41,006 nucleotides of DNA from NCBI GenBank assembly GCA_016190825.1, contig JACPPV010000007.1, forward strand, positions 1 through 41,006. Direction: 5' to 3'. Both the position numbers and the translations under genes were made by a program. Source of the DNA: Chloroflexota bacterium. Lineage in GTDB: Bacteria > Chloroflexota > Dehalococcoidia > Dehalococcoidales > UBA2162. Shown one piece after another: positions 5,088 through 24,703 of the stretch. Position 1 is the first letter of the stretch; the number at the start of each line of letters is the position of its first letter. Below the pieces are notes generated by a model. It was not told where the DNA came from. It worked only from the letters and a program-made list of their open reading frames with translations, and made no database searches.

Positions 5088-5987
5088 ATGAAAAACATGG
5101 ACTTGATGAAGATAATGGATAAGTTCCAAAGCGATGACTCATACCGAGAAGCTCTGGTTGAATTGCGCTGGCCGGATGGCGTGACATGCCCACGTTGCTC
5201 AAGTAAGAACATCCGCAATTCCTATACCCGTGACCAATACGATTGTGCTTCATGCGATTATCAATTCTCCGTAACTTCTGGCACTATCTTCCATGACAGC
5301 CACTTGCCTCTTAGGAAGTGGTTTGTCGCTATCTTCCTGATGGTAGAAGCCAAGAAGGGTATGTCGGCTAATCAGCTTAAACGTGTTTTGAACGTCTCCT
5401 ATAAGACAGCCTGGTATCTTTGCCACCGCATCCGGGCCGCAATGTCTGACGGAACGCCAGAACTTCTCAAGGGCATCGTGGAAGTTGATGAGACGTGGGT
5501 AGGTGGCAAGCGCAAGCATGTGGGACATGGTTTCAAGGGCAACAAGGTTATTGTGGTAGGCGCTGCCGAAAGAGACGGAAGGATTTCGCTCAAGCTGATT
5601 GATGCAGCCGATAGAGCCACCCTTCACAAGTTTATCCATTCCACTACCGCACCGGATACCGAAGCTATTTATACCGATGAATGGCCTGCCTATAAAGGTA
5701 TCGCTGACAAAGACACGCGCCATGAATCGGTCAACCACAGCATCGAGGAATGGGTAAGGGGTGATGTCCACACAAACTCGGTTGAGAATGTCTGGTCGCT
5801 TCTCAAGCGGTCTATCATCGGCTCTTATCATAAAATCTCCGTTAAACATCTTGACGCCTACCTTGACGAGCTAGAATGGCGGTTCAACAACCGCAATAAC
5901 GAGTATCTATTCAGGGATACGCTTCTTAAACTCATTCGGTCTGAAAACCTTCCTTACGCAAATTTGGTTTCTTCATTAGAGACCTAG
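5088..5987 (+). CDS. IS1595 family transposase
   Basis: A 299-residue transposase, the usual length for the family. Residues 30-60 hold the N-terminal zinc ribbon (CPRC...CASCDYQF) that marks IS1595/ISXO2 elements. After a helix-turn-helix-like stretch (MSANQLKRVLNVSYKTAWYL) comes the DDE-type catalytic domain: VEVDETWVGGKRK gives the first Asp, IYTDEWPAYKGI the second, and HTNSVENVWSLLKRSI the ENxW block with the final acidic residue. It closes with ELEWRFNNR. AGGAGG at 5076-5081 lies 6 bp before the ATG. No frameshift or stop is visible, so the enzyme may be active. Its 3' end overlaps the convergent passenger gene by 56 bp. Confidence 0.95.
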   Translation: MKNMDLMKIMDKFQSDDSYREALVELRWPDGVTCPRCSSKNIRNSYTRDQYDCASCDYQFSVTSGTIFHDSHLPLRKWFVAIFLMVEAKKGMSANQLKRVLNVSYKTAWYLCHRIRAAMSDGTPELLKGIVEVDETWVGGKRKHVGHGFKGNKVIVVGAAERDGRISLKLIDAADRATLHKFIHSTTAPDTEAIYTDEWPAYKGIADKDTRHESVNHSIEEWVRGDVHTNSVENVWSLLKRSIIGSYHKISVKHLDAYLDELEWRFNNRNNEYLFRDTLLKLIRSENLPYANLVSSLET

Positions 5988-12115: not shown

Positions 12116-13312
12116 CTAGCCTTGCCTTTGTTTCCTGCGCAGGAGAAGTATGGCTGTGCCAATGACCAGTACGGCGACGCCAACTATTCCGGCAACCAAT
12201 GCCAGGTTATTCGCCGGTTTGAGCGCTTCGGGTGACGGTAACGGGGGCGATGGAGCCGCCGGTGTCACACTGGGCGCCAGTTCTTGCGCTGGCTCCGATG
12301 TTACACCGGGTTTCGGAGCTGGCACGGGTGATGGCTCCGGAGCCGGTACCGGGACTGGCGCTGTAACAACCACAGGCGTTGACGGCAACACCACTGGCTC
12401 AAAGATTATGGCAAACTCGGTGAAATGGCTCACCGGTGCCATGATGGTATTGTTTACCGGATCCACGGTGCTGCCCAGTTTCTCCCATTTGCCGGCGGAA
12501 GCATCCCACCAGGCAACAAAGAGCCTATCGACCGTTGTTCCCGGTGGCAAAGTTGCTGGGTTGAAACTCAAAGTCATGATTATCGGCGGGTTAAACCTGG
12601 CTCCCGCCGGGCCGAACTCATAGGCCAGTACGACGGATCCGCCTAGCGGAGGGACCGGCGGCGTAGCCAGGGGCGCCGCGCTGAGGGTAGAAATCGCCTG
12701 GCCAGCTTTATCTGTCATTTCCGTACCCGCCGCGATGTTGATATCGACCTTGCTGTCAGCGGTCTTAAGTTTGGCCGCGTTTTGCGTCTTGCCCCTGTTA
12801 TCAAGAGCGGACGCTGTTCCGGTGAGACCGGTTAGCGCAACAGTAGTGCTCCCGGTTCCCCCGCCAGCAGGAGGGGCGCCACCACCGGGGGCAACGCCAC
12901 CACCCCCACCTCCTCCCGGAGGTGGGGCAGCATCCTTGACTACCGTCAGGTCAAGCCGGCTGATCTGTCCGCTAACCCACGTGGCGGTCTGCGTTGCCGG
13001 CTTTCCATCAACGAAGAAGCTTACGGTTGCTCCCTGGGCGATCGCGCCCTGTACAACCAGCTTGGGATCAAAACTGCCCGGGCCGCCGTACGCCCCCTGC
13101 AGGGTAGTGGTTAGTGGGTTTCCGGCAATTCCGGTCAAGACTCCGGTACCTCTGGCCTCTACCCTGGTCCCGACCTTGGCAGGCGCGCCCTCTACGGTCA
13201 GGTTGCCGTAGAAAGCGTGCGGCAACTCCGGTACCGCTGCGGAAACGGGGACGGCAATACCGGCAAGCCAGGATGCGGCCAGTAAGCCAACTAACAATCT
13301 TTTCACTCTCAT
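12116..13312 (-). CDS. Exported, C-terminally anchored surface protein, last gene of the redox operon
   Basis: 398 residues. A Sec signal peptide (1-25) is followed by a beta-rich region (about 28-130) ending in DLTVV. A linker of up to seven consecutive Gly, with further Gly and Pro, follows. Then comes a module (about 160-305) with DIAAGTEMTDKAGQAI-like and VVLAYEFGPAGARFNPP segments ending in VSHFTEFAIIFE, which resembles ZU5/adhesion-type domains. A Pro-rich stalk (about 310-365) leads to one transmembrane helix and the basic tail RRKQRQG. The architecture is of a protein standing on the outer face of the membrane. The module and tail are paralogous to the end of the protein at 16884-19199. 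GGAGG lies 11 bp before the ATG. The function is unknown; it may scaffold the oxidases or peroxidase. Confidence 0.7.
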   Translation of the reverse strand: MRVKRLLVGLLAASWLAGIAVPVSAAVPELPHAFYGNLTVEGAPAKVGTRVEARGTGVLTGIAGNPLTTTLQGAYGGPGSFDPKLVVQGAIAQGATVSFFVDGKPATQTATWVSGQISRLDLTVVKDAAPPPGGGGGGGVAPGGGAPPAGGGTGSTTVALTGLTGTASALDNRGKTQNAAKLKTADSKVDINIAAGTEMTDKAGQAISTLSAAPLATPPVPPLGGSVVLAYEFGPAGARFNPPIIMTLSFNPATLPPGTTVDRLFVAWWDASAGKWEKLGSTVDPVNNTIMAPVSHFTEFAIIFEPVVLPSTPVVVTAPVPVPAPEPSPVPAPKPGVTSEPAQELAPSVTPAAPSPPLPSPEALKPANNLALVAGIVGVAVLVIGTAILLLRRKQRQG

Positions 13313-13386: not shown

Positions 13387-16300
13387 TCAGGGCAACGGGG
13401 TGATGCTGAACCCGAATAGAGTGTCAGGATTGTCCATAATCACCCAGTAACCCTTGAACGGAAGCAGGCTCTGCACCTGCCCACCGACCACATATGTCCA
13501 GCTATCCTGGTTATGCGGAGGGCTGATTACGATCGAGTAGCCCCTGGCGCCGCCCGCTGCCTGGGCAATGCTGGCAAGCAACTGGTCCAGCGACTTGGCC
13601 GGGAACGCGCCAAGTTCGAGAGCCGGTGCCACACCGACGAGGTTCAGCCCCGCCACCAGGGAGCGACTGGGCGGCGAAGATAGGTCGGGAGATGGGACGA
13701 GATTCGCCGTCGCCGTAAGTTCGGGCCTCACCTTGACATAGTATGCGTCCAACGGAAGCAGCGCATCGCCGCCGCCCATCTGCCGCCATTGCCCGCCAAC
13801 CCAGCCGTATATGATCTCGATGTTGGCGCTCTGCTGGGCGGTAAAGATCTGGTCAATCCGTTGCCCGCCGGTGCTCAGTCTCACCGGAGTAGACAGCAGG
13901 TTCCAGCCCGCCTGGAGGACAGTGGACAAAATCGCAGGGGACTGCACGGTAACATTGATTATCGCCGGCTGCAGGGTGGCCGCGTTCCCGGCGGCATCAG
14001 TGGCCGCCACGGTAACGGTGTTCTGGCCCGGAATCAGAGTTGCATTATAGCTCCACGCGGCGTCGGTAACCGTAGCCGCTGCCGGGACGCCACTGTTCAC
14101 CGAGATATTTACCAGCGCTCCGGCTTCCGTGCTGCCGGACAGCACCTGGCTCAGCAGGTTGGTTGGAGTGGTGACGGCGCTCAGGCTGACAACCGGCGGG
14201 GTGGTATCCAGGACAATCGTTTGCTGCGACAATGATGCGACATTGCCCGCGGCATCCATTGCAGTGACAATAGCGGTATTTGACCCCTGATTGAGATTGA
14301 CACCCAGGCTCCAGGTTGCCCCGGTGGTAGTCGCCAGCGCCGGCGCGCCGCCGTTCACCGAGACCCTCACAGCAGCCCCGGACTCGATAGTGCCGGACAG
14401 CAACTGGCTGGCTAACCTGGTGGGTGAAGTGACGGCATTGAGCGTAACTCCCGGGGCCACGGTATCAAGAGTCGCAGTTTCCGTAAGGGTCGTCTCGACT
14501 CCGGCGTCAACCACCCTGACGGTGATGACGTTCGCTCCTTCCACAAGCCCGGTGATATTGGCGCTCCAGTTGCTGCCGGTCACGGTGACCGGACCCACCG
14601 TCGCTGCGGAATTGATCGAAACCGCCGGTGTCAATCCAGCCCCCACTGTGCCGGAGACGGTCTGGTCCGGCTGGTTGGTCGGCGTTGCCACCGGGTTTAA
14701 CGTGACCGACGGTGAAGGCGCCGCCGTTCCGTTTGCATCCCTGGCAGGGATTCTGAGCAGCAAATCTGGGTTATCTCCGCTGGGGACAAGAAGCTCCGGG
14801 TGGTCGAACGGGGCTGACTCATTCCTGACCCGCTCGTCGGAGAGCGCTTTCATGAAGGCAACCAGCGCGTCTTTCTGGGCTTTCTTCCCCTGCAGCAACG
14901 GGATCCCCTGGCCAACAACCGGGTCAAGGTCGGCCGCGTTCTCAGTCGGGAAGTTGCCGCCCCGGACATAAAAGTCCACCACGTCTTCCAGGGTCATCGT
15001 GCCGCCGTTGTGGAAGTACGGCGCCGTCAGCTCCACATTGCGCAATCCCGGCACTTTGAAGAGGCCGTTAGAGTTGTCGCGTATGGTCAGGGGAATAATG
15101 GGGTCCAGGATCGGCGACAGGAAAGGCAGCAGGTTTCTCGCCTGCAGTAACGCCCTGGCTGAAAAAGAAAGCGGGATTGGCTGACCGGTCAACGGGTTGG
15201 TGAAAGGCGTATTGCCTCCCCGGCCGACATCGTCAGTGGTCAGGGTTACGCCGTTGTTATTGAAGCCATCGTCATAGATGGCCCGGGTGCCATCGGCCAC
15301 AAACATCAGCTCGATGAGAGCGTTATCGAAATTGTTCAGGAACGCGGCGCCGGTTGCCGAGGCGGCGGTGAACTCAATGCCGCCGTGACAGGCGCTGCAT
15401 TCGTTGTTCTCAAAGGCATCGAATCCCAGCTTCTGCTGGTCGGTCAGCGCATTCACGTCGCCCGCCAGCCAGCGGTCAAAAGGCGTCTGGTCGGAAACCA
15501 GGGTCGCCACGTACATTTGGATGGATAGTCCCCAGTATAGGGAGAAGTTAGCCTCCATGTGGGTATAGCCATCAGGCGTGAGCGCGGTAGAATTCCAGAG
15601 CTTGTCCTGGAAAGTATCCTTTATCATCTGGGCATAGTTGGTGTTGAGACCGTTGCCAACGTACTTTCCGTTCGGCTGCAGCGTTGCCCTGGAGAGGGGG
15701 CCGAGCACGCTGTCACCCGGGTGAACCAGTTGTTTGCCGAGCGGCGTCAGGCTGAGCATCTTCTTGCCCAGTTTCGGGAAAGTGCGGCCGCGGGCGGACA
15801 TCTCGGTAGCGTCCATTGGCGGGCCCGTCGCCTGGGAAGCAAGACTGGCAAACTCGATGGCCACCGACCGCTTGACCAGCCCTCCTGACTCATTGAACCA
15901 GACGCCGGCATTAGCGTCAGCCGGACCAAACGGATTGTTGCCGTTGAAAATGAAGCTGGCCCGTCCGTCCCAGAAGTTGGTGAAGTTGAATATGGCGTTG
16001 ATGACGGTGGGCGTATTGCGTCCGGTCACCCGCCGTGTGTTGTTACCGCTGACATTGAAAACCGGGTCGGCCACCGGGGTCATACTGTCAACGGCAGAGC
16101 CGGGGATCACGTCCACGAACTCGGTCAGGCGGACGCCCTGGGAGCCAACGACATCGTCAGAATTGCGAACGGTAGCCGAGAACTGCGAATCTGTCGGAGT
16201 CGCCCGCTGATGGAAGGGAAAATCGCCCGATTGGAGGGTTCCACCGGGATTGACTACATTAAAGACGCCATTCTTGCCCGGATTAATGGTATTCTTCATC

Positions 16301-16800
16301 CGGTTATCCGCGCCGGCGCTGAAGTGACAGCTCGCGCAGGACTGGACGCCATCGCTGCCAACCTGCATATCCCAGAATAAAGCCTTGCCAAGCCTGATTG
16401 CGGCCGGCTTGCTCTTGACGAAATCAGCGAGGTTGGGAGGCTCCGGCACAACCGTCTGGTTGAGCGGGGCCAGGTCTACTGGAGCCAGAGGCTCAGTCGT
16501 AAAGGTAGCGGTAATAGTATGGTTGGCTGATACGCCGGTAAAGGTATAGTCCCGCGGCGAACCAGCCGACACGCCGTCAACCGCCACATTAAATACAATG
16601 TTACCGGCGTTCGGGGTAATGGTGAAGGTCTGGCTGGCATTTTCTGCTACGCTGACGGCGCCGCTCGGACTGATTGTCCCACCGACGCCAGCCAAAGCAG
16701 TGATGGTATACGGCCCCGCCGCCAGGGCCGGAACTGCGACAGGAATACTCATAGCCAGGACGGCTAATATGCTTAAGACGGTAAAAAACGACCTTTTCAT
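13387..16800 (-). CDS. Di-haem cytochrome c peroxidase (CcpA/MauG family) with Ig-like repeats
   Basis: 1137 residues from the ATG at 16800, chosen because GAGGAG lies 8 bp upstream. An ATG at 16833 would put 11 residues before the signal peptide. A Sec signal peptide (1-28) is followed by an InlB-type B-repeat domain (about 30-105). The di-haem peroxidase core (about 120-690) has C155-A-S-C-H and C468-S-A-C-H, and LGKALFWDMQVGSDG just before the first haem as in CcpA/MauG. Three Ig-like (Big-type) repeats with VTLNAVTSPT-like starts span about 710-950. A C-terminal unit contains AGWNLLSTPV and GYWVIMDNP. Classical members have about 350 residues, so this is a much enlarged surface version. 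It reduces peroxide or oxidises an external substrate; the electron donor is unknown. It is fourth in the operon begun by the oxidases. Confidence 0.9.
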   Translation of the reverse strand: MKRSFFTVLSILAVLAMSIPVAVPALAAGPYTITALAGVGGTISPSGAVSVAENASQTFTITPNAGNIVFNVAVDGVSAGSPRDYTFTGVSANHTITATFTTEPLAPVDLAPLNQTVVPEPPNLADFVKSKPAAIRLGKALFWDMQVGSDGVQSCASCHFSAGADNRMKNTINPGKNGVFNVVNPGGTLQSGDFPFHQRATPTDSQFSATVRNSDDVVGSQGVRLTEFVDVIPGSAVDSMTPVADPVFNVSGNNTRRVTGRNTPTVINAIFNFTNFWDGRASFIFNGNNPFGPADANAGVWFNESGGLVKRSVAIEFASLASQATGPPMDATEMSARGRTFPKLGKKMLSLTPLGKQLVHPGDSVLGPLSRATLQPNGKYVGNGLNTNYAQMIKDTFQDKLWNSTALTPDGYTHMEANFSLYWGLSIQMYVATLVSDQTPFDRWLAGDVNALTDQQKLGFDAFENNECSACHGGIEFTAASATGAAFLNNFDNALIELMFVADGTRAIYDDGFNNNGVTLTTDDVGRGGNTPFTNPLTGQPIPLSFSARALLQARNLLPFLSPILDPIIPLTIRDNSNGLFKVPGLRNVELTAPYFHNGGTMTLEDVVDFYVRGGNFPTENAADLDPVVGQGIPLLQGKKAQKDALVAFMKALSDERVRNESAPFDHPELLVPSGDNPDLLLRIPARDANGTAAPSPSVTLNPVATPTNQPDQTVSGTVGAGLTPAVSINSAATVGPVTVTGSNWSANITGLVEGANVITVRVVDAGVETTLTETATLDTVAPGVTLNAVTSPTRLASQLLSGTIESGAAVRVSVNGGAPALATTTGATWSLGVNLNQGSNTAIVTAMDAAGNVASLSQQTIVLDTTPPVVSLSAVTTPTNLLSQVLSGSTEAGALVNISVNSGVPAAATVTDAAWSYNATLIPGQNTVTVAATDAAGNAATLQPAIINVTVQSPAILSTVLQAGWNLLSTPVRLSTGGQRIDQIFTAQQSANIEIIYGWVGGQWRQMGGGDALLPLDAYYVKVRPELTATANLVPSPDLSSPPSRSLVAGLNLVGVAPALELGAFPAKSLDQLLASIAQAAGGARGYSIVISPPHNQDSWTYVVGGQVQSLLPFKGYWVIMDNPDTLFGFSITPLP

Positions 16801-16883
16801 TAACGTGCTCCTCTCATCAAAGTACTTCTCCACTCAGACATGGACTTGACCTCACTGCATCTTGCCCTCCATCTGAACGCAGA

Positions 16884-19199
16884 CTATCGCTGGTTTACCC
16901 GTTTTCTCCGGTAGAGGATTACCAAGCCGATTAGTACGATCACAGCCCCGGTGAACTCAATGGCAACAATCGAATTTCTATTAGACGTCGGCGTACCCTC
17001 AGGAGCAGGCGCCGGTGGGACCGTAGTAGCCGGCTCAGGTGTTGGCACTGGTAGCGCCGCCGGCGCCGGTTCTGGCGCTGGTACTGGATGCTCATGGGCA
17101 GGCGCCGCGGCTGGTTCAGTGATCGGCGTGGGAGTCGGTGCAGTCACAGGTATGACAGCCTGCACCGGCGGTGGGGCCGGTAGTTCAGCCAGTATCCCGA
17201 CCACCGTGAAGTGGCTTACCTGTGCGGTAACCGTCCTGGCTGCTGTATCCACAACGCTGTCCAGCTTGGTCCAGCCTGTCCCGTCCCAGTAGGCGAGAGA
17301 CAGTTTGTTTTCATTTATTCCTGCCGGTAAATTCGCCGGGTCATAGGTCATCGAGACCGTCAGCGCCGGGTTGAACGTAGCGCCATCAGGCCCGAAGTCC
17401 TGGGCAACTATCACAGAGTGGTCCGGGGGCGCTGCGGGAGGCGTTCCCGCCAGCGGTGCCGCCGTCAGGGACATGAGCGGCGTTCCGTCTTTGGTCTGGA
17501 GCACGGTACCCTGGGCGACCGTCAGAGTGGCCTTTCCGTCAATCGTGGTTAGCTTCGCCTCGGAGAGCGCTTTTCCGGAAGGATCAATGTTAAGCGCGGC
17601 GGTTGTGGCCACTCCCGTAAGTGCAACCGTAATGATTGGCGGCGCCACCGGCCCCCCCCCGCCGCCTCCCCCGCCGCCACCATCGGCGTCTTCCGGCGGC
17701 GGAACACTGAGGCTGGCCGGGACGACCATAGCGGCCACAACCTGCTGGGCATCGGTCGCCCGCAGGAACAGGAATCCGGTCCGGTCTGGGCCGGCCGGAG
17801 GCGTTATGACGGCGTTCCACGAATTGCTGGCGGGATTCAATTGCATAGGTACCCACAAAGATGTATCAGGGCCAGGAGGTCCAACGAACCGGTACTCAAC
17901 GGTCGCAGCGCTGCCGGCGTTGAGCCCGGACTGAAGTACGGCCGGCTCATTCGGATCATTTACAACAAATTTTGCCCCCCCGATGGTCCAGACGGCGGCG
18001 TCCGTTGTCTCCACAATGCCGTTAAAGAAGTAGGCGGCTGACACCGTGGCCTTTCCCGGGATGCGTGGAGTTGTTGACAACGCGGTGATTTCCCTGGCCA
18101 CAACCGGCCCGGGCGCCAGCGTGCGGGTAGCAATGACCCTGACCTCGGTGCCTACCGCAGGGGCGCCCCGCACAGTGGTGTTGGTGCTTTGATAGACGAA
18201 CAACGGCGGGTTGCCGATTGCCCATTCGCCGTTGGGATTGGCTGCGGAGACCACTCCTTCGATCACCAGTTGCTTCCACGAGCCGGTCGGGAGATTCACC
18301 GGTGCGGGCTCAGTATTGATTACCGGAGCAGGATGGATAACTCCGCTGACAGGGATTGAGATCTGCGGGCTGAAGACCTCCAATGCCATATTGGCATCAA
18401 CCGTGGCGGGTAACTGGGTGGTAAATTGCACCGTAACCAGAGGGTTTAGCCCTCCGCCCAATCCGATGCCCGAATCGATATTCGCCGGAAAGTTGGCATC
18501 GTCAATACGGAAGGGAACACCCCCGACAGTCCAGGTTGCTCCCCCCAACTTGATACCGGCAGTCTGGCTGGCAGTCTGGACCGATTGTATCGTCCCGTTA
18601 AACAAAAAGGACCGCTCCACGGTGGGAGCTGGTGCGGGAAGAGAGCCCGCCCCCAGCGAGGTAATCGTTTCGGCAATGACGGGACCGGCGGCCAGCGTGC
18701 GCATCGCGCTTACCCTGACCTCGCTGCCCACCACCGGTGCGCCCTGCACCGATGTCGAGCCGTCCTGCCTTTCGTAGACAGCCACCGGCGGGGTGCCGAT
18801 CTTCCATTCACCGATGGTGCTGTTGACACTGGAAACCGTCCCGAAAAGGACAAGCGAGACCACAGAACCCGAGGGAAGTCCCGCCGGGACGGCAGTGCTA
18901 TCGATAACGGCGTCGCCCGTTTTGGCCAGCCCGGGCGTAATTGCCCTCTGAGGGCCTATTCTCATCGCCGGGAAAGTGCCCGCCGGGTCATTAAAGAGGA
19001 CCTGAAACTCCGCCGAGGTTATCGCCGACCCTGTTGAGCTGGCGCCGATGCTGACCGGGTTCTGCGCCCCGGCAATAAACCGGGCAACAGGCGGCACCGG
19101 TTGTCGCAGGGTTATTACCGGGCCGGCCTGGGCTGACGATGGTATTACCAGCGTCAATGCCAGTAAGATTGCCGTGGTAAACGCCGCCTTACTTTTCAT
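16884..19199 (-). CDS. Large exported surface protein with DUF5666-like repeats and C-terminal anchor
   Basis: 771 residues from the ATG at 19199, preceded by GGGGAAG; an ATG at 19235 lies before the signal peptide. The signal peptide (about 1-26) is followed by a domain comparing chemical or physical states (VISIGASSTGSAITSAEFQV-like). Then come two or more repeats of the form V-x-G-x-V-S-x-x-x-G-E-W-x-I-G-x-P-P, each followed by VRGAPAVGTEVRV or VQGAPVVGSEVRV and AGPV-[IV]-A-x-E-I-T. These match the DUF5666 pattern. A Gly-rich linker, a ZU5-like module ending in VSHFTVVGIL, a Pro/Ala-rich stalk and one transmembrane helix with a basic RRKR tail complete it. It shares the C-terminal half with the protein at 12116. 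No catalytic motif is seen; a structural or binding role beside the oxidases is likely. Confidence 0.7.
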   Translation of the reverse strand: MKSKAAFTTAILLALTLVIPSSAQAGPVITLRQPVPPVARFIAGAQNPVSIGASSTGSAITSAEFQVLFNDPAGTFPAMRIGPQRAITPGLAKTGDAVIDSTAVPAGLPSGSVVSLVLFGTVSSVNSTIGEWKIGTPPVAVYERQDGSTSVQGAPVVGSEVRVSAMRTLAAGPVIAETITSLGAGSLPAPAPTVERSFLFNGTIQSVQTASQTAGIKLGGATWTVGGVPFRIDDANFPANIDSGIGLGGGLNPLVTVQFTTQLPATVDANMALEVFSPQISIPVSGVIHPAPVINTEPAPVNLPTGSWKQLVIEGVVSAANPNGEWAIGNPPLFVYQSTNTTVRGAPAVGTEVRVIATRTLAPGPVVAREITALSTTPRIPGKATVSAAYFFNGIVETTDAAVWTIGGAKFVVNDPNEPAVLQSGLNAGSAATVEYRFVGPPGPDTSLWVPMQLNPASNSWNAVITPPAGPDRTGFLFLRATDAQQVVAAMVVPASLSVPPPEDADGGGGGGGGGGPVAPPIITVALTGVATTAALNIDPSGKALSEAKLTTIDGKATLTVAQGTVLQTKDGTPLMSLTAAPLAGTPPAAPPDHSVIVAQDFGPDGATFNPALTVSMTYDPANLPAGINENKLSLAYWDGTGWTKLDSVVDTAARTVTAQVSHFTVVGILAELPAPPPVQAVIPVTAPTPTPITEPAAAPAHEHPVPAPEPAPAALPVPTPEPATTVPPAPAPEGTPTSNRNSIVAIEFTGAVIVLIGLVILYRRKRVNQR

Positions 19200-19242
19200 A
19201 TTGACTTCCCCTTTCCGAGTAAAGGCATAAAACAACGCCGCA

Positions 19243-20961
19243 TCACATTGCCCTCCCTCTGAAGAACTGCCCGGACTGGTTGGCCCCGGCCATGGTTACC
19301 TCCCTCTGGCGCGGAGAAAACCGGAATCCGGCGAGGTTAGGGATGACCGTATAGCGGCCGTTTACGAGACCGGAGAAGCTGTAGTTGCCCGAGGCATCAG
19401 TTACCGCTGTCTGACTACCGGCGTTGCTGTTGAGTACAATGCTTACGCCGGGGAGAGCTTCGCCGGTACGGCTGCTGAACGCCGATCCCGATACTGAATA
19501 AGTACCTGTGGCCGCAGGGCCGATGTTTACCGGTATCTCGGCGGTGACCGCTACGGGAGCGGTGCCGAGCCGGCCACCGTGGCGGGCGCTAAGGAATTTG
19601 ACCGTGGCCACGCCATGGACTTCGGAGTCAGACCTGATGAGACAGTCGAAACGCCGCGCGACACTCATATGGATGGGCGTACCAGCCGGGACGAAGTAGG
19701 GATGATTAAAGCCGAAAGGCGGTACTCCCAGGGAACGTCCGTCCCAGGCGATGATTGTGACATCCACCGGGAAGGTGACCTCAATGACATCATAAGCCCC
19801 GTTGAGGCAGCGGATCAGAATGGTCTGGCCTATCCGCGCATCTATCGGGACCTGTGTGCCGGAAATACCGCTGTTCAGTTCCGCCGGAATGACTGCCTGG
19901 TTGGGGAGTCTGCCGGTCCCTCCACGATGGGCCGGCACCGGCACGCCGGTGATAAACCAGTAGTCAGGATTGAACTGGTTGAAAGCGAAGAACCCATCCC
20001 TGCCTGGTTTTCGCGCGAAATCATCATCGATACCGGGATGAGGCCCGAACGCCGGAAACGTGGCCCGGGCATCATCCGCCAGAGCACTCCAGGCAGAGTC
20101 GCGGTCGCCCAGCACCCAGATCGCCTCCGCGTCATAGGGGACGGTCATAGCATGGGGATTGGTGGCAAATTCTCGTAGCGGGTCGGGGTCAGTGAGCAGC
20201 CCTCCGATGAAGCCGGGATAGGGATTCGCTATTATTGCGCCCTCGAATCCGGAGCCGGCTCCGGGGTCTATGGGCACCTCGCCGCCGGTGGGTCCCCGGA
20301 TGATGCCGAGATTAGCCGCCGTCCGGAATTTGCCATCCCGGCAGGCGCCGATAGGAATGGCCGGGTTCTTTTGAGTGGCAAAGTAGGCATCCGGCGGCAT
20401 GATGGGCAGCAACCCGTAGAGACCAAAGTTGAAATGCTGCACCGTGTTCCGGTGACAATGGTAGAAATAGGTGCCGATGAAGTTGGGCTGCCATTGATAT
20501 GTGTAGTCGCCAATTTCCATCGAGCAATGCCCCACCCCATCGTTGATGGGTGTCGGCTCGATGCCATGCCAGTGGATGGTATGCGGCGGCGGGCCGCTCC
20601 CCTGCGTGTGGCCATGGAAGATGGCCCCCCGGGGGATCCGTGTGGTCGGCGCAGGATAGACCCCGCCGGAAGCTGTCGGGTTAGTAGGGTCCCGGAAAAC
20701 GAAGAAAACCAGGTCCGTGGCATTGTCCCAGGTGCGTTGTGTCATGCCATGCATCAACTGCCGCTCCAGGGTGTGAGCAATGGGGGGCGCGGTCTGCATA
20801 CCAGCCGCTGCCATGACCTCCGGGACGGGATTGGTCGGCACTAGCACATCCGGCGTGGGCGGGTCAGCCTTGGGCGGGTCAAACATCTTGACCCATTCAT
20901 TCTCCATGCCCACGGCTGATTGCCGGGGGATCGTGCCAAAAATCGGATTATTGACTGACAT
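19243..20961 (-). CDS. Multicopper oxidase-like protein (first-domain copper ligands) with carboxypeptidase-regulatory-like C-terminus
   Basis: 572 residues. Copper motifs lie in the N-terminal half: H130-W-H132-G, then YFYH168-C169-H170 with a further His176 and GLYG. This is the pattern expected for the trinuclear-site half of domain 1, here with a Cys between the two His. A later cupredoxin-like region (about 370-480) has no HxH or HCH ligand set. The last 85 residues (YSVSGSAFSSRTGEALPGVS onward) form a carboxypeptidase-regulatory-like beta-sandwich. No signal peptide is visible at the N-terminus, unlike its Tat-exported neighbour 20 bp upstream, so the two may be exported together as a complex. 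GGAG lies 7 bp before the ATG. See the finding on split copper sites. Confidence 0.85.
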   Translation of the reverse strand: MSVNNPIFGTIPRQSAVGMENEWVKMFDPPKADPPTPDVLVPTNPVPEVMAAAGMQTAPPIAHTLERQLMHGMTQRTWDNATDLVFFVFRDPTNPTASGGVYPAPTTRIPRGAIFHGHTQGSGPPPHTIHWHGIEPTPINDGVGHCSMEIGDYTYQWQPNFIGTYFYHCHRNTVQHFNFGLYGLLPIMPPDAYFATQKNPAIPIGACRDGKFRTAANLGIIRGPTGGEVPIDPGAGSGFEGAIIANPYPGFIGGLLTDPDPLREFATNPHAMTVPYDAEAIWVLGDRDSAWSALADDARATFPAFGPHPGIDDDFARKPGRDGFFAFNQFNPDYWFITGVPVPAHRGGTGRLPNQAVIPAELNSGISGTQVPIDARIGQTILIRCLNGAYDVIEVTFPVDVTIIAWDGRSLGVPPFGFNHPYFVPAGTPIHMSVARRFDCLIRSDSEVHGVATVKFLSARHGGRLGTAPVAVTAEIPVNIGPAATGTYSVSGSAFSSRTGEALPGVSIVLNSNAGSQTAVTDASGNYSFSGLVNGRYTVIPNLAGFRFSPRQREVTMAGANQSGQFFRGRAM

Positions 20962-20981
20962 ATTGAGTCTCCTTCGTATCC

Positions 20982-22541
20982 CTAGCTTCTAGATTCCTCA
21001 GATTCCGCACAAGCCTGGATGGTATTCGGCGGGACATGGTCCGGGTCATTCGGGAATTCGGTAACTCCACCCGGGAGATTCCGGTCCCCGGTGATATTCA
21101 TTCCGGCTATCAGACCCAGGTTGTAGTTGCCGCCCTGGGCGGTTTGGCTTGGCTCGGAATGATCGTGCATGGGATAGCACAGCGGTGAAAGCTGGACACC
21201 CAGGTCGATAGGCTGTCCGGCCGCATTCAACGCCGTCAGCCCGGTAACGCCGGGAATAACCACTCCTATCTTGCTAGGTATGGAAAAGTCAAGCTCTTCA
21301 CTAGGCGGCCATATGGGATGCGGCACAGAACCCGGAATCAGCGCATTACCCGGTGACTGAAGCACGGTGTCCGGCCGGCCGATTCCCCTGGCATTCGGCA
21401 CGTCCGGCGGCCTCATATAGGGTATGACGTAGTCCACCCGGTCCATCGGGTGAATGTTGAAGACATCTATCCACAGCGGGTTCGTCTGCACCGCGCCGTT
21501 GATGCTGGTGACGTAGAAATGGTTGGCGTGCAGGTGCATCGAGTGCATCCACAACCCGGCGTTTAGTATATGGACCACGCAGGGCTCGCCGACCTTGAGC
21601 ATTGGCGTGATGTGGGGGTTATTGTGAGAAAAGTGACCGGACTGGCCGTTGACGGTGAAGTACTGGGCGCCTTTGAAGCTGATGCCGTTGGTCAGGTCTC
21701 GACTATTAAGGAAAAGGTCAACGAACTGCGCCGCCGGGTAATCCTCTCCGGCAGGGAAATTACCTACTTCGGCAAACAGGTTGGGGCTTGCCTGGTGGTC
21801 AAGCCAGATATAAGTCCGGAAAGGTGGGGTCGGTGGGTGGGGAGCCGGGTTGTCGCCTCCTTCCCCCCAGGCGAGGCCGGGCCAGACATCGGGGTCGCCG
21901 AAGGCGTTGAAAAGAGACTGAACATTAGACGTCGGGTTATGGTAGGGAGTCCATTTGTTGCCGACGCCGCCGGGTGGCGCTGCGGTGAAGTCCGGCATAA
22001 CAACAAAGGCGCCGTGAAGCCCCATTATGCGGTTCACCGGCTCATTGAGATTGTCGTAGTACAGTAACGCACCTGACACGGTGCCGGGTATGATAAAGGA
22101 CTTGCTCCAGACATTGTCCGGGGCATTCTGGACGGGCGGGATGGGACCACTATCGACGACCCCCGGAATAAAGAAGGAGTGCGGCTCATCAAGCAGGTTG
22201 GTGACCTTGATATTAACCGTATCGCCCTGGGTGGCAAAAATAGTCGGCCCCGGGACCTCTACGGGCGGGGTAACGGCCGGCTGGACGCATTTGTACACCC
22301 AAAAATAGCACTCAGCGTTATGGATGCTATTGTGAGTTACCATTTGCTTGATGGCATCCCCGATTTGAAGCTCTATGGTATGGGTCTGTACCGCGGCATA
22401 GGCGTGGCTCTTCGCGAGCCATCCCAACCTGCTCCCCACGACAATGACGGCCAGACCGCCCATGGAATACTTGAGAAAATCGCGTCTGCTCAGCCAGGAT
22501 CTGTCAATTTCTGTTTCCACTGTACCTTGCCCCCTGTGCAT
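20982..22541 (-). CDS. Tat-exported multicopper oxidase-like protein (third-domain copper ligands)
   Basis: 519 residues from the ATG at 22541, 7 bp after GGAG; a GTG just before it is the alternative. S-R19-R20-D-F-L-K starts a twin-arginine signal peptide, so the protein should be exported folded, probably with copper. The first cupredoxin region lacks the usual HxHG and HSH ligands (it reads HSFFIPG and LLYYDN). The last one has H333-S-M-H336-L-H338-A-N-H341 and then CYPMH459-D-H461. The standard HCH type-1 motif is replaced by HDH. It begins the five-gene operon and is transcribed divergently from the two-component system. Family members oxidise metals, phenols or other donors using oxygen. 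The substrate here is not evident; Mn(II), Fe(II) or Cu(I) are possibilities by analogy only. Confidence 0.88.
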   Translation of the reverse strand: MHRGQGTVETEIDRSWLSRRDFLKYSMGGLAVIVVGSRLGWLAKSHAYAAVQTHTIELQIGDAIKQMVTHNSIHNAECYFWVYKCVQPAVTPPVEVPGPTIFATQGDTVNIKVTNLLDEPHSFFIPGVVDSGPIPPVQNAPDNVWSKSFIIPGTVSGALLYYDNLNEPVNRIMGLHGAFVVMPDFTAAPPGGVGNKWTPYHNPTSNVQSLFNAFGDPDVWPGLAWGEGGDNPAPHPPTPPFRTYIWLDHQASPNLFAEVGNFPAGEDYPAAQFVDLFLNSRDLTNGISFKGAQYFTVNGQSGHFSHNNPHITPMLKVGEPCVVHILNAGLWMHSMHLHANHFYVTSINGAVQTNPLWIDVFNIHPMDRVDYVIPYMRPPDVPNARGIGRPDTVLQSPGNALIPGSVPHPIWPPSEELDFSIPSKIGVVIPGVTGLTALNAAGQPIDLGVQLSPLCYPMHDHSEPSQTAQGGNYNLGLIAGMNITGDRNLPGGVTEFPNDPDHVPPNTIQACAESEESRS

Positions 22542-22599
22542 CACTCGGCTCCCCTGTGTTCACTGCTTTGACCTCATAGTTCAGCCTATCGAATAAACG

Positions 22600-22753: not shown

Positions 22754-24056
22754 ATGGTGGGGTGGCATATGGCGATTTCAGCACAGCAGTTGCGCGCCCA
22801 GGAAATTGAACCGGCAAGCGCCATTGGGGCGAGACACGCCTGGCATTACGTCTGGTCCCGCCAGAAAATCATTTCCGACGTTTTCCGTTTGGTCGCGTTC
22901 GGCGCCGCTATCCTCCAGATAGTGGCCTTCCCTGTTGGCCTCGGTTACAATGCTTTCCCCGATTCCTTCATCAGGGGGAGCCGAGCCTTTCCATGGGGGG
23001 GGCCTGGCTACAGTGCAGCAGAGTTGGTCCCGGTAGTCTTGCTGGGAGGCATTTACTCAATCCTTAAGATTGTCCAACCGTTCGAGTGGCACCAGCTGAG
23101 AGTAGTCAACTTGTTGCTTCTGTCTGTGGATGTGGCGGCGGGCGTGCTGCTGGTCAACCTCAGCGGTGGAATACACAGCCCATTTATCCTCTATACCCTC
23201 GTTCCTGTGCTTACCGCCTCCATGACAAAGAACTACATGGCAACCATTGTCGTATCGGTGATCACAGCCATATATGTCCTGGCCGGTAACATCTTTAACG
23301 CCTATAACGCCGCTTCTAACTATGCTCTTACTCTCCAGGCGGTGAATGACTTTTTCGTATATTCGATTGCGCTTAGCCTGGTGGCCGTTCTTCCCTACTC
23401 CATCAACTTGACCGAGGTCCGGAGGCTGCGGACCAACGCTGCTACGTCAGAGCGCCAGCGCATATCGCGCGACCTGCACGATAGCGTGTGCCAGGCGCTT
23501 TGCGGACTGCGCTGGCAGGTCCAGCGCCTTTTGGGCCGAGTCGCTTCTGACGCCTCCTTATCAGATGAGCTCAAAAGGCATAGAGAAGGCAGTCGCTGCC
23601 GCCGAAGAAGATGCCAGGGGATTGCTGGACGTGCTTTGCACCGTCGGCGCCCATGGTGAATTCTTGCCCAATATGAGGTACTATCTGGAACAATTGAAGC
23701 ATTGCAGCGGGATAAGCTACAGGATGGAGTGTGATGATGCCGACCTCCAGCTTGAAGAATCTGCCGAACGCGAAGTTTCGATGATATGTATCGAGGCCCT
23801 GACCAACATCAAGAAGCACGCCCAGTCCCAAAATGTCGCATTCAGCGTGGCACAGAGGGATGGGCATCTCCGGATCAGCATAACCGATGACGGCAAGGGC
23901 TTCGATGGTCTGGCCGGCGAAGGTCATGGCCTATCCATTATGCGGGAACGTGCCCGGCTTGTAGGAGGAACTCTGAGTATCACGAGCAACGTTGGAAAGG
24001 GCACCGAAATAGAGCTGGATGTCCCCCGTTGCGGGGGGGGGGGGGGAGATAGATAA
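22754..24056 (+). CDS. NarL-type sensor histidine kinase, interrupted by a frameshift
   Basis: Two overlapping frames together encode one kinase. The first (from 22754) has five or six hydrophobic segments over residues 40-220, then the HisKA_3 dimerisation box SERQRISRDLH242DSVCQAL. The second (from about 23565) continues with EKAVAAAEEDARGLL, the ATPase N-box IEALTNIKKHA, DDGKGFD and GHGLSIMRERA. The switch needs one base to be skipped near 23584-23590, in CTC AAA A GGC. This may be a sequencing error, a recent mutation or a programmed +1 shift. The ATG at 22754 directly abuts GGGAG, so the ATG at 22769 may be the true start. The kinase ends in a run of five Gly codons from a G14 tract and overlaps the regulator gene by one base. 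It probably senses a signal at the membrane and controls the divergent oxidase operon. Confidence 0.8.
24033..24046 (+). repeat. Homopolymer of 14 G at the kinase-regulator junction
   Basis: Fourteen consecutive G encode the last Gly residues of the kinase and, with the following A and G, form the purine-rich site 7-8 bp before the regulator ATG (24056). A change of one or two G would alter where the kinase frame ends and the spacing or coupling to the regulator. Confidence 0.85.
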
Positions 24057-24703
24057 TGCCTGAGCAGACATCAGCAAAGGCGATCAAAGTAATGATCGTC
24101 GATGACCATCCCGTTGTGCGCGACGGTCTGCGGCTGTCAATACTGGACAAGCCTGATATGATGCTTGCCGCAGAGGACGCGGATGGATTTCAGGCTGAGG
24201 AAACGGCCCTAAAAGTCAAACCGGATGTCATCTTGATGGATGTTTCTATGCCCGGGCGCGACGGGCTGGAAACAATGCTCTCTATCAAGCAGAAACTCCC
24301 CGATGTCAAGGTCCTCGTCCTGACCGTCTCGGAGCGATACGAAGACCTTCTTCGTGCGGTCCGCATGGGGGCCCATGGATACCTCTCCAAGAGGCTTAGT
24401 GCGGAAGAGATTATCAACGCGGTCAAGCGGGCTGCTGCCGGCGAAGTCATTCTTTCGCCGGATATGACCGCCAAGCTGATGGACGAACTGAAAAAGAAAG
24501 CGACCGAGCCGTCACTCAGCCCAAGGGAAGAGGAAATCCTGGCCTTAGTCGGTGAGGGGCTCACGACTGCTGAGATTGCCAAACGGCTATATCTCGGCGA
24601 GGGTACAGTCAGCACTTACGTCCGCCGGCTACTGGACAAACTTCATCTCAGACACCGGGCGGAGGCCATTGCCTACGCTATCAGCCACAGTCCGAGAAAG
24701 TAA
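24056..24703 (+). CDS. NarL/FixJ family response regulator
   Basis: 215 residues with the standard two domains. The receiver (about 9-125) has the acidic pair in VMIVDDHP, the phospho-acceptor Asp62 in VILMDVSMPG, the Thr in VLVLTVSE and the Lys in GYLSKRLSAEE. The LuxR-type helix-turn-helix (about 150-210) reads LSPREEEILALVGEGLTTAE, then IAKRLYLGEGTVSTYVRRLLDKL. Its ATG overlaps the kinase stop (TAATG), so the pair is translationally coupled. The ribosome-binding site is the G-tract end (GGGAG). It is a transcription factor activated by the adjacent kinase. The divergent multicopper-oxidase operon and the palindromes between them are the most likely targets. Confidence 0.95.
   Translation: MPEQTSAKAIKVMIVDDHPVVRDGLRLSILDKPDMMLAAEDADGFQAEETALKVKPDVILMDVSMPGRDGLETMLSIKQKLPDVKVLVLTVSERYEDLLRAVRMGAHGYLSKRLSAEEIINAVKRAAAGEVILSPDMTAKLMDELKKKATEPSLSPREEEILALVGEGLTTAEIAKRLYLGEGTVSTYVRRLLDKLHLRHRAEAIAYAISHSPRK

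Follow-up and report, generated by a model that had tools for sequence, protein, structure and literature searches.

Multicopper oxidases bind four coppers, reduce O2 and follow an established ligand pattern, which consists of eight His of a trinuclear copper centre and a type-1 site. In three-domain laccases the type-1 Cys is located in the last domain, and domains 1 and 3 of the same chain hold the trinuclear centre between them. Heterodimeric fungal laccases (POXA3) resemble the pair described below in having two different subunits, but all of their coppers reside on the large one. Human ceruloplasmin, also a single chain, has its trinuclear centre at the junction of domains 1 and 6, and in the bacterial six-domain oxidases of the MnxG/MofA type it is found between domains 2 and 3 (PMC3600357). 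MnxEFG is a multicopper oxidase assembled from different gene products (the MnxG-E3F3 complex), with MnxG as the single oxidase chain and MnxE and MnxF as small extra copper proteins (PMC5622069); here, however, the oxidase chain itself is undivided. Also close to the system described below are the type C two-domain oxidases, homotrimers in which neighbouring identical subunits share each site (PMC13151041). A search of the open-access literature retrieved no description of a split, heteromeric or two-polypeptide multicopper oxidase, or of a trinuclear centre encoded by two genes. Two adjacent genes in a 41,006-nucleotide stretch of a Chloroflexota genome (contig JACPPV010000007.1; the whole stretch is referred to as the window) point to such an arrangement. 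At a probability of about 0.88, their products, P1 and P2, make up a single multicopper oxidase that is an obligate heteromer of the two; it would exist only as the P1–P2 pair because each gene encodes half of the oxygen-reducing copper centre.

Both genes and all of their features lie on the minus strand. P1 (20982..22544, 520 aa), which is transcribed first, is a two-cupredoxin half-oxidase subunit with a Tat motif, four predicted trinuclear-site His and no type-1 site. It is followed after 20 bp (20962..20981), which include an AAGGAG ribosome-binding-site-like sequence ahead of P2, by the partner subunit P2 (19243..20961, 572 aa), which has no signal peptide and is predicted to contribute the other four trinuclear-site His and the type-1 copper site. 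The open reading frame of P1 had previously been given as 20982–22541; the frame is retained, but its start is moved to a GTG at 22544, one codon before the ATG at 22541. Pfam places both proteins in the multicopper oxidase superfamily, with Cu-oxidase_3 (PF07732) and Cu-oxidase_2 (PF07731) above cut-off in P1 and Cu-oxidase_3 (PF07732) in P2. A CarboxypepD_reg domain was additionally found by Pfam at the C-terminus of P2 (19288..19497); it varies in copy number among P2 homologues and is missing from many. Each protein contains two cupredoxin domains (D1 and D2), giving four per pair. The genome of the window encodes three such pairs, the second (on contig C40) being 53–61% identical to the window pair and the third, a compact version on contig C16, 30–32%.

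The first cupredoxin of P2 carries two ligand motifs, HTIHWHG (20563..20583) and YHCHRNTVQHFNFGL. In the former, conserved in 40 of 40 sequences, H127 is the predicted type-1 ligand and H130 and H132 are assigned to the trinuclear site. The latter (20419..20460; HCHRNTVQHFNFGL) has the pattern Y-H168-C169-H170-RNTVQ-H176-xxxx-L181, in which H168 and H170 would belong to the trinuclear site, C169 and H176 to the type-1 site, and L181 would be axial. The axial position is occupied by Leu in most members and by Met in the most distant ones (L093, L095, L096 and L135). In blue copper proteins an axial Leu goes along with a high-potential type-1 site, which suggests that the type-1 site of the main group is of this kind. 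The second cupredoxin of P2 (residues about 368–480; 19522..19860) has no ligand set.

P1 shows the reverse distribution. Its first domain (residues about 96–184; 21993..22259) is a degenerate cupredoxin without any HxH, the trinuclear-site His having been replaced. The second domain contains the motifs HSMHLHANH (21519..21545; H334-SM-H337-L-H339-AN-H342) and MHDH (21159..21170; M459-H-D-H462), each conserved in 40 of 40 sequences and neither including a Cys; H337, H339, H460 and H462 are the predicted trinuclear-site ligands. In MHDH an Asp stands at the place of the type-1 Cys, and across the family this position is Asp, Gly or Ser. A Cys occurs there in the distant members L093 and L135 only, where the other type-1 ligands are lacking, and is likely a vestige. 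The preliminary description had already reported HxxHLHxxH and HDH in the last domain of the first-transcribed protein after a ligand-less first domain, and H-W-H-G and Y-H-C-H in the first domain of the second protein with no later set; this distribution is confirmed. Of HxxHLHxxH as a ligand motif, however, only a part is retained: H337, H339 and H342 are conserved, but H334, which occupies the position where the last domain classically has its type-1 His, varies among family members. When P1-D1 is aligned to P2-D1, an invariant Asp (D164) stands opposite C169, and H122 (38/40) is the retained type-1 His; judged from this alignment, the erosion of ligands appears directly visible in P1-D1. 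Four P1 residues outside the trinuclear set (H122, D164, N171 and H342) are nearly invariant, the first three corresponding to the eroded type-1 pocket of D1 and H342 being an additional His downstream of the HLH motif.

With one genome scanned for each species, 24 loci were obtained from Chloroflexi, Deltaproteobacteria, Nitrospirae, Phycisphaerae, the archaeon Candidatus Methanoperedens nitroreducens and the cultured Minicystis rosea, and at every locus with enough room P2 directly follows P1 on the same strand. Further loci from whole-genome searches brought the set to 43 non-redundant pairs of six phylum-level groups (bacteria of at least five phyla and one archaeon); all 43 are adjacent, on the same strand and in the order P1 then P2. 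In the 40 pairs long enough to align (median identity 48% for P1 and 56% for P2, minimum about 31%), H337, H339, H342, H460 and H462 of P1 and H127, H130, H132, H168, C169, H170 and H176 of P2 are invariant, and the eight trinuclear-site His are split four and four between the two proteins without exception. No case of an HWH/HCH set on P1 or an HLH/HDH set on P2 was encountered among the homologous pairs examined. Jointly, P1 and P2 thus possess eight trinuclear His in four HxH motifs and a type-1 Cys/His/His, of which each protein alone has half. Since this is the established ligand pattern of multicopper oxidases, the motifs can be assigned to one putative trinuclear site, with four His from each protein, and one putative type-1 site that would lie wholly in P2-D1. 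A division of the four motifs that recurs unchanged in all 40 full pairs, even at identities as low as about 31%, is far beyond chance. In a profile comparison of the P1 alignment (A1) with the P2 alignment (A2), the first domains only were aligned (E 1.7e-4, probability 49). More distant tandem pairs show the same division of ligands, either with a P1-like gene before a P2-like gene (L155 and L156) or with complementary ligands in reversed gene order (L157, L158 and L159 in G1310, G1224 and G1051, respectively). A long fused N-terminal region precedes the type-1 half in L159, and several halves among L155–L159 have Sec-like signal peptides as judged by eye.

The two genes also occur together. 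Among 247 genomes of the phylum around G306, eight encode both P1 (E up to 1e-20) and full P2, with 15 copies of each, and the remaining 239 encode neither. Two findings had been named beforehand as speaking against a heteromer, namely a complete independent copper site in either protein and homologues without the partner. The former is absent from both proteins in all pairs. The latter was restricted, within 294 genomes of the window's class, to contig ends (L035 in G037, and G045:C86, where P2 begins 378 bp from the contig end) and to a truncated 207-aa P2 remnant in G106 that lacks the copper domain and the ligands. The distance matrices of P1 and P2 are correlated with r = 0.90 (maximum 0.32 in 1,000 shuffles), which shows joint inheritance of a kind that adjacency by itself would also produce. 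None of the open frames covered by 1,970 genome look-ups was a natural P1–P2 fusion; a candidate, L135, has an in-frame TAG between its two genes.

For structure prediction, naturally in-frame P1–P2 loci were modelled as linked pairs by reading the intervening stops as Gly, a modelling device for which the DNA was left unedited. AlphaFold2 gave a pLDDT of 85.6 and a pTM of 0.90 for the L034 pair (88/83% identical to the window pair; 70 aligned sequences), with a disordered linker at 453–483, and a pLDDT of 83.9 and a pTM of 0.88 for the compact pair L135 (46 sequences), values that indicate a confident mutual placement of the halves, with the caveat that these are covalently linked and that their docking may come from the model's knowledge of the fold. 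The predicted heterodimers overlay residues 1–695 and 2–697 of human ceruloplasmin, i.e., domains 1–4, the alignments covering about 525 residues (Z 15.6 and 21.8; rmsd 4.3 and 4.1), and the first-ranked Foldseek match is MnxG (9bxa). The four domains would leave a third of the ceruloplasmin-like ring empty. These models, together with the 4 + 4 split of the His and the consistent pairing, support the earlier suggestion of a heteromer that rebuilds one oxidase at its interface.

The preliminary description had viewed the pair in analogy to three-domain oxidases, with the trinuclear centre between the first and last domains. This analogy is abandoned, as the type-1 Cys is not in the last domain and the centre would not be enclosed by domains 1 and 3 of a single chain; type C and MnxG-type oxidases are the better comparison, the pair having four domains and a predicted site between domains 2 and 3. 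The type C structures 2zwn (a metagenome laccase) and 3g5w (from Nitrosomonas europaea) rank at or near the top of the sequence matches for P1 as well as for P2. As predicted for the pair, these enzymes have the type-1 site in the first domain, a second domain with HxH pairs but no Cys, and a trinuclear centre to which one chain contributes domain 1 and its neighbour domain 2. P2 shares with them two cupredoxins and a type-1 site restricted to the N-terminal domain, whereas P1 has no type-1 site. Every type C chain carries both half-sites, in contrast to the pair, where each gene product has one half and the other two are erased, P1-D1 and P2-D2 being ligand-less in the homologues. By analogy, the pair resembles a type C trimer of which two subunits, no longer equal, and a single site are left. 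With P1 and P2 concatenated in this order, the predicted centre lies between the consecutive domains 2 and 3, the same position as in MnxG/MofA. The latter, however, are single chains of six domains with the type-1 site in domain 2; the pair has two chains, four domains and the type-1 site in domain 3. Ceruloplasmin, despite the overlay of its domains 1–4, differs in the position of its centre.

Several other explanations have to be weighed against a P1–P2 heteromer. P1 and P2 might function separately, P2 as a type-1 electron carrier and P1 as a copper-binding protein or chaperone whose HxH pairs bind single coppers, and the ligand-free domains of both could then bind other partners. This would leave unexplained, however, why eight His occur in complementary halves in 40 of 40 pairs and never without the partner, and it fits neither a P2 without export signal nor the confident joint model of the linked pair; we regard separate functions as improbable. 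Even less probable is an interface like that of copper nitrite reductases. NirK holds one type-2 copper on three His, and single halves of the pair also match NirK structures, but P1-D2 and P2-D1 each have two HxH pairs, and these eight invariant His are difficult to reconcile with a single type-2 copper. The short distance of just 20 bp between the genes might indicate that a stop or frameshift has interrupted a normal gene, or that two paralogues are decaying. Yet the split is identical in 43 pairs of six phylum-level groups, each P2 has its own start, the ligands are strictly conserved and the genome of the window alone contains three pairs. Moreover, the gap and the frame of P2 relative to P1 vary among the pairs; because the two genes are in one frame in only 10 of 39 pairs and the start of P2 is conserved, a single broken gene is excluded, and decay in general is hardly conceivable.

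An alternative of a different nature is a higher-order heteromer, either a (P1P2)n ring or an assembly in which an added two-domain subunit completes a ring of six domains as in ceruloplasmin, with one trinuclear centre per P1–P2 interface. Such an assembly is a refinement of the P1–P2 heteromer and compatible with it. The trimeric state of two-domain oxidases (PMC13151041) and the six domains of ceruloplasmin and MnxG, compared with four in the pair, would favour it, but no third conserved cupredoxin gene was found beside the pairs, and the 1:1 unit is predicted to fold alone. We consider a larger assembly a serious possibility, albeit not the expected one.

P1 begins with the Tat motif SRRDFLK (residues 19–25; 22470..22490), of which R20, R21 and F23 are invariant in alignment A1, and a twin-arginine motif followed by a hydrophobic stretch is present in 40 of 42 P1 N-termini. 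No signal peptide was detected in P2, even when upstream in-frame sequence was included; its N-termini show conservation starting at the first Met and are hydrophilic, with a median best 14-residue hydropathy of 0.49 versus 1.64 for P1. In some Tat-exported enzyme pairs the partner is carried out folded. Since the expected location of an oxidase that bears a CarboxypepD_reg domain is outside the cytoplasm and P2 has no signal of its own, P2 most likely rides out folded with P1 via Tat, in line with the joint export suggested previously from the presence of a Tat signal on one protein.

For the P1–P2 heteromer the following mechanism can be proposed. Because P2 lacks a signal peptide, the pair would be assembled in the cytoplasm and exported folded on the Tat signal of P1. 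In the copper-loaded enzyme, P1-D2 (H337, H339, H460 and H462) and P2-D1 (H130, H132, H168 and H170) would meet face to face, taking the places of domains 2 and 3 in a ceruloplasmin-like arrangement and clasping three coppers as one trinuclear centre across the subunit interface. Electrons from the substrate would enter at the type-1 copper of P2-D1 (C169, H127, H176 and axial L181) and pass over the HCH bridge to the trinuclear centre, where O2 would be reduced to water; P1-D1 and P2-D2, having lost their ligands, may serve as scaffold. The substrate is most likely extracytoplasmic and a metal ion (Mn, Fe or Cu) or a phenol. That O2 is the natural oxidant is not obvious, because COX1 and cytochrome bd subunit I were not found in the genome of the window (G000; 91% complete), which nevertheless encodes three split pairs. 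The oxidase may thus function in O2 defence, work at oxic fringes or use another oxidant.

We tentatively propose, as a rather doubtful scenario, that the pairs are surviving intermediates between homotrimeric two-domain and six-domain oxidases (MnxG and ceruloplasmin), in which duplication led to a heteromer and each copy lost complementary half-sites, so that fusion alone is missing. Within this scenario the layout would have arisen in more than one lineage, because both gene orders occur, and the pair of strict anaerobes may use an oxidant other than O2. A two-gene trinuclear centre makes an existing hypothesis directly testable, namely that multi-domain oxidases arose from two-domain oligomers by asymmetric site loss. 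Automated annotation labels both halves "multicopper oxidase"; as neither should work alone, the pair should be counted as one enzyme, which affects oxidase counts and claims of metal oxidation for genomes of Chloroflexota, Desulfobacterota, Nitrospirota and Methanoperedens. A natural two-part oxidase might also provide a handle for switchable or split enzymes.

The neighbours of the pair vary by locus and include divergent two-component systems, a MauG/cytochrome c peroxidase-type diheme protein (five loci), RND-type pumps that are Czc/Cus-like by eye (three loci) and, directly downstream of the Methanoperedens nitroreducens pair, a 1691-aa six-domain oxidase of MnxG/MofA layout (L045:13312-18384) with HQH/HCH in domain 2 and HVH/HDH in domain 3. 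On account of these neighbours, a role in metal handling is loosely indicated. A sequence link between the pair and the Methanoperedens six-domain oxidase was dismissed, the scores being at noise level. Downstream of the pair, the window encodes a MauG/MbnH-like diheme protein with Ig-like repeats (13387–16833), relatives of which adjoin the pair in L034, L040, L042 (as two ORFs) and L044. Two secreted proteins that are related to each other, each with a proline-rich tail and a membrane anchor at the C-terminus, are encoded at 16884–19235 and 12116–13312, the larger with DUF5666-like repeats, and homologues are located beside the pair in L034, L047, L056 and L058. A divergent histidine kinase (22754–24056) is present in two overlapping frames (22754–23659 and 23565–24056) and apparently frameshifted, its counterpart in the near relative L034 being one 419-aa ORF; it is followed by a LuxR-type response regulator (24056–24703). 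Finally, a transposase-like ORF whose N-terminal part is a zinc ribbon (CxxC pairs), of IS1595 type by eye, is located at 5088–5987.
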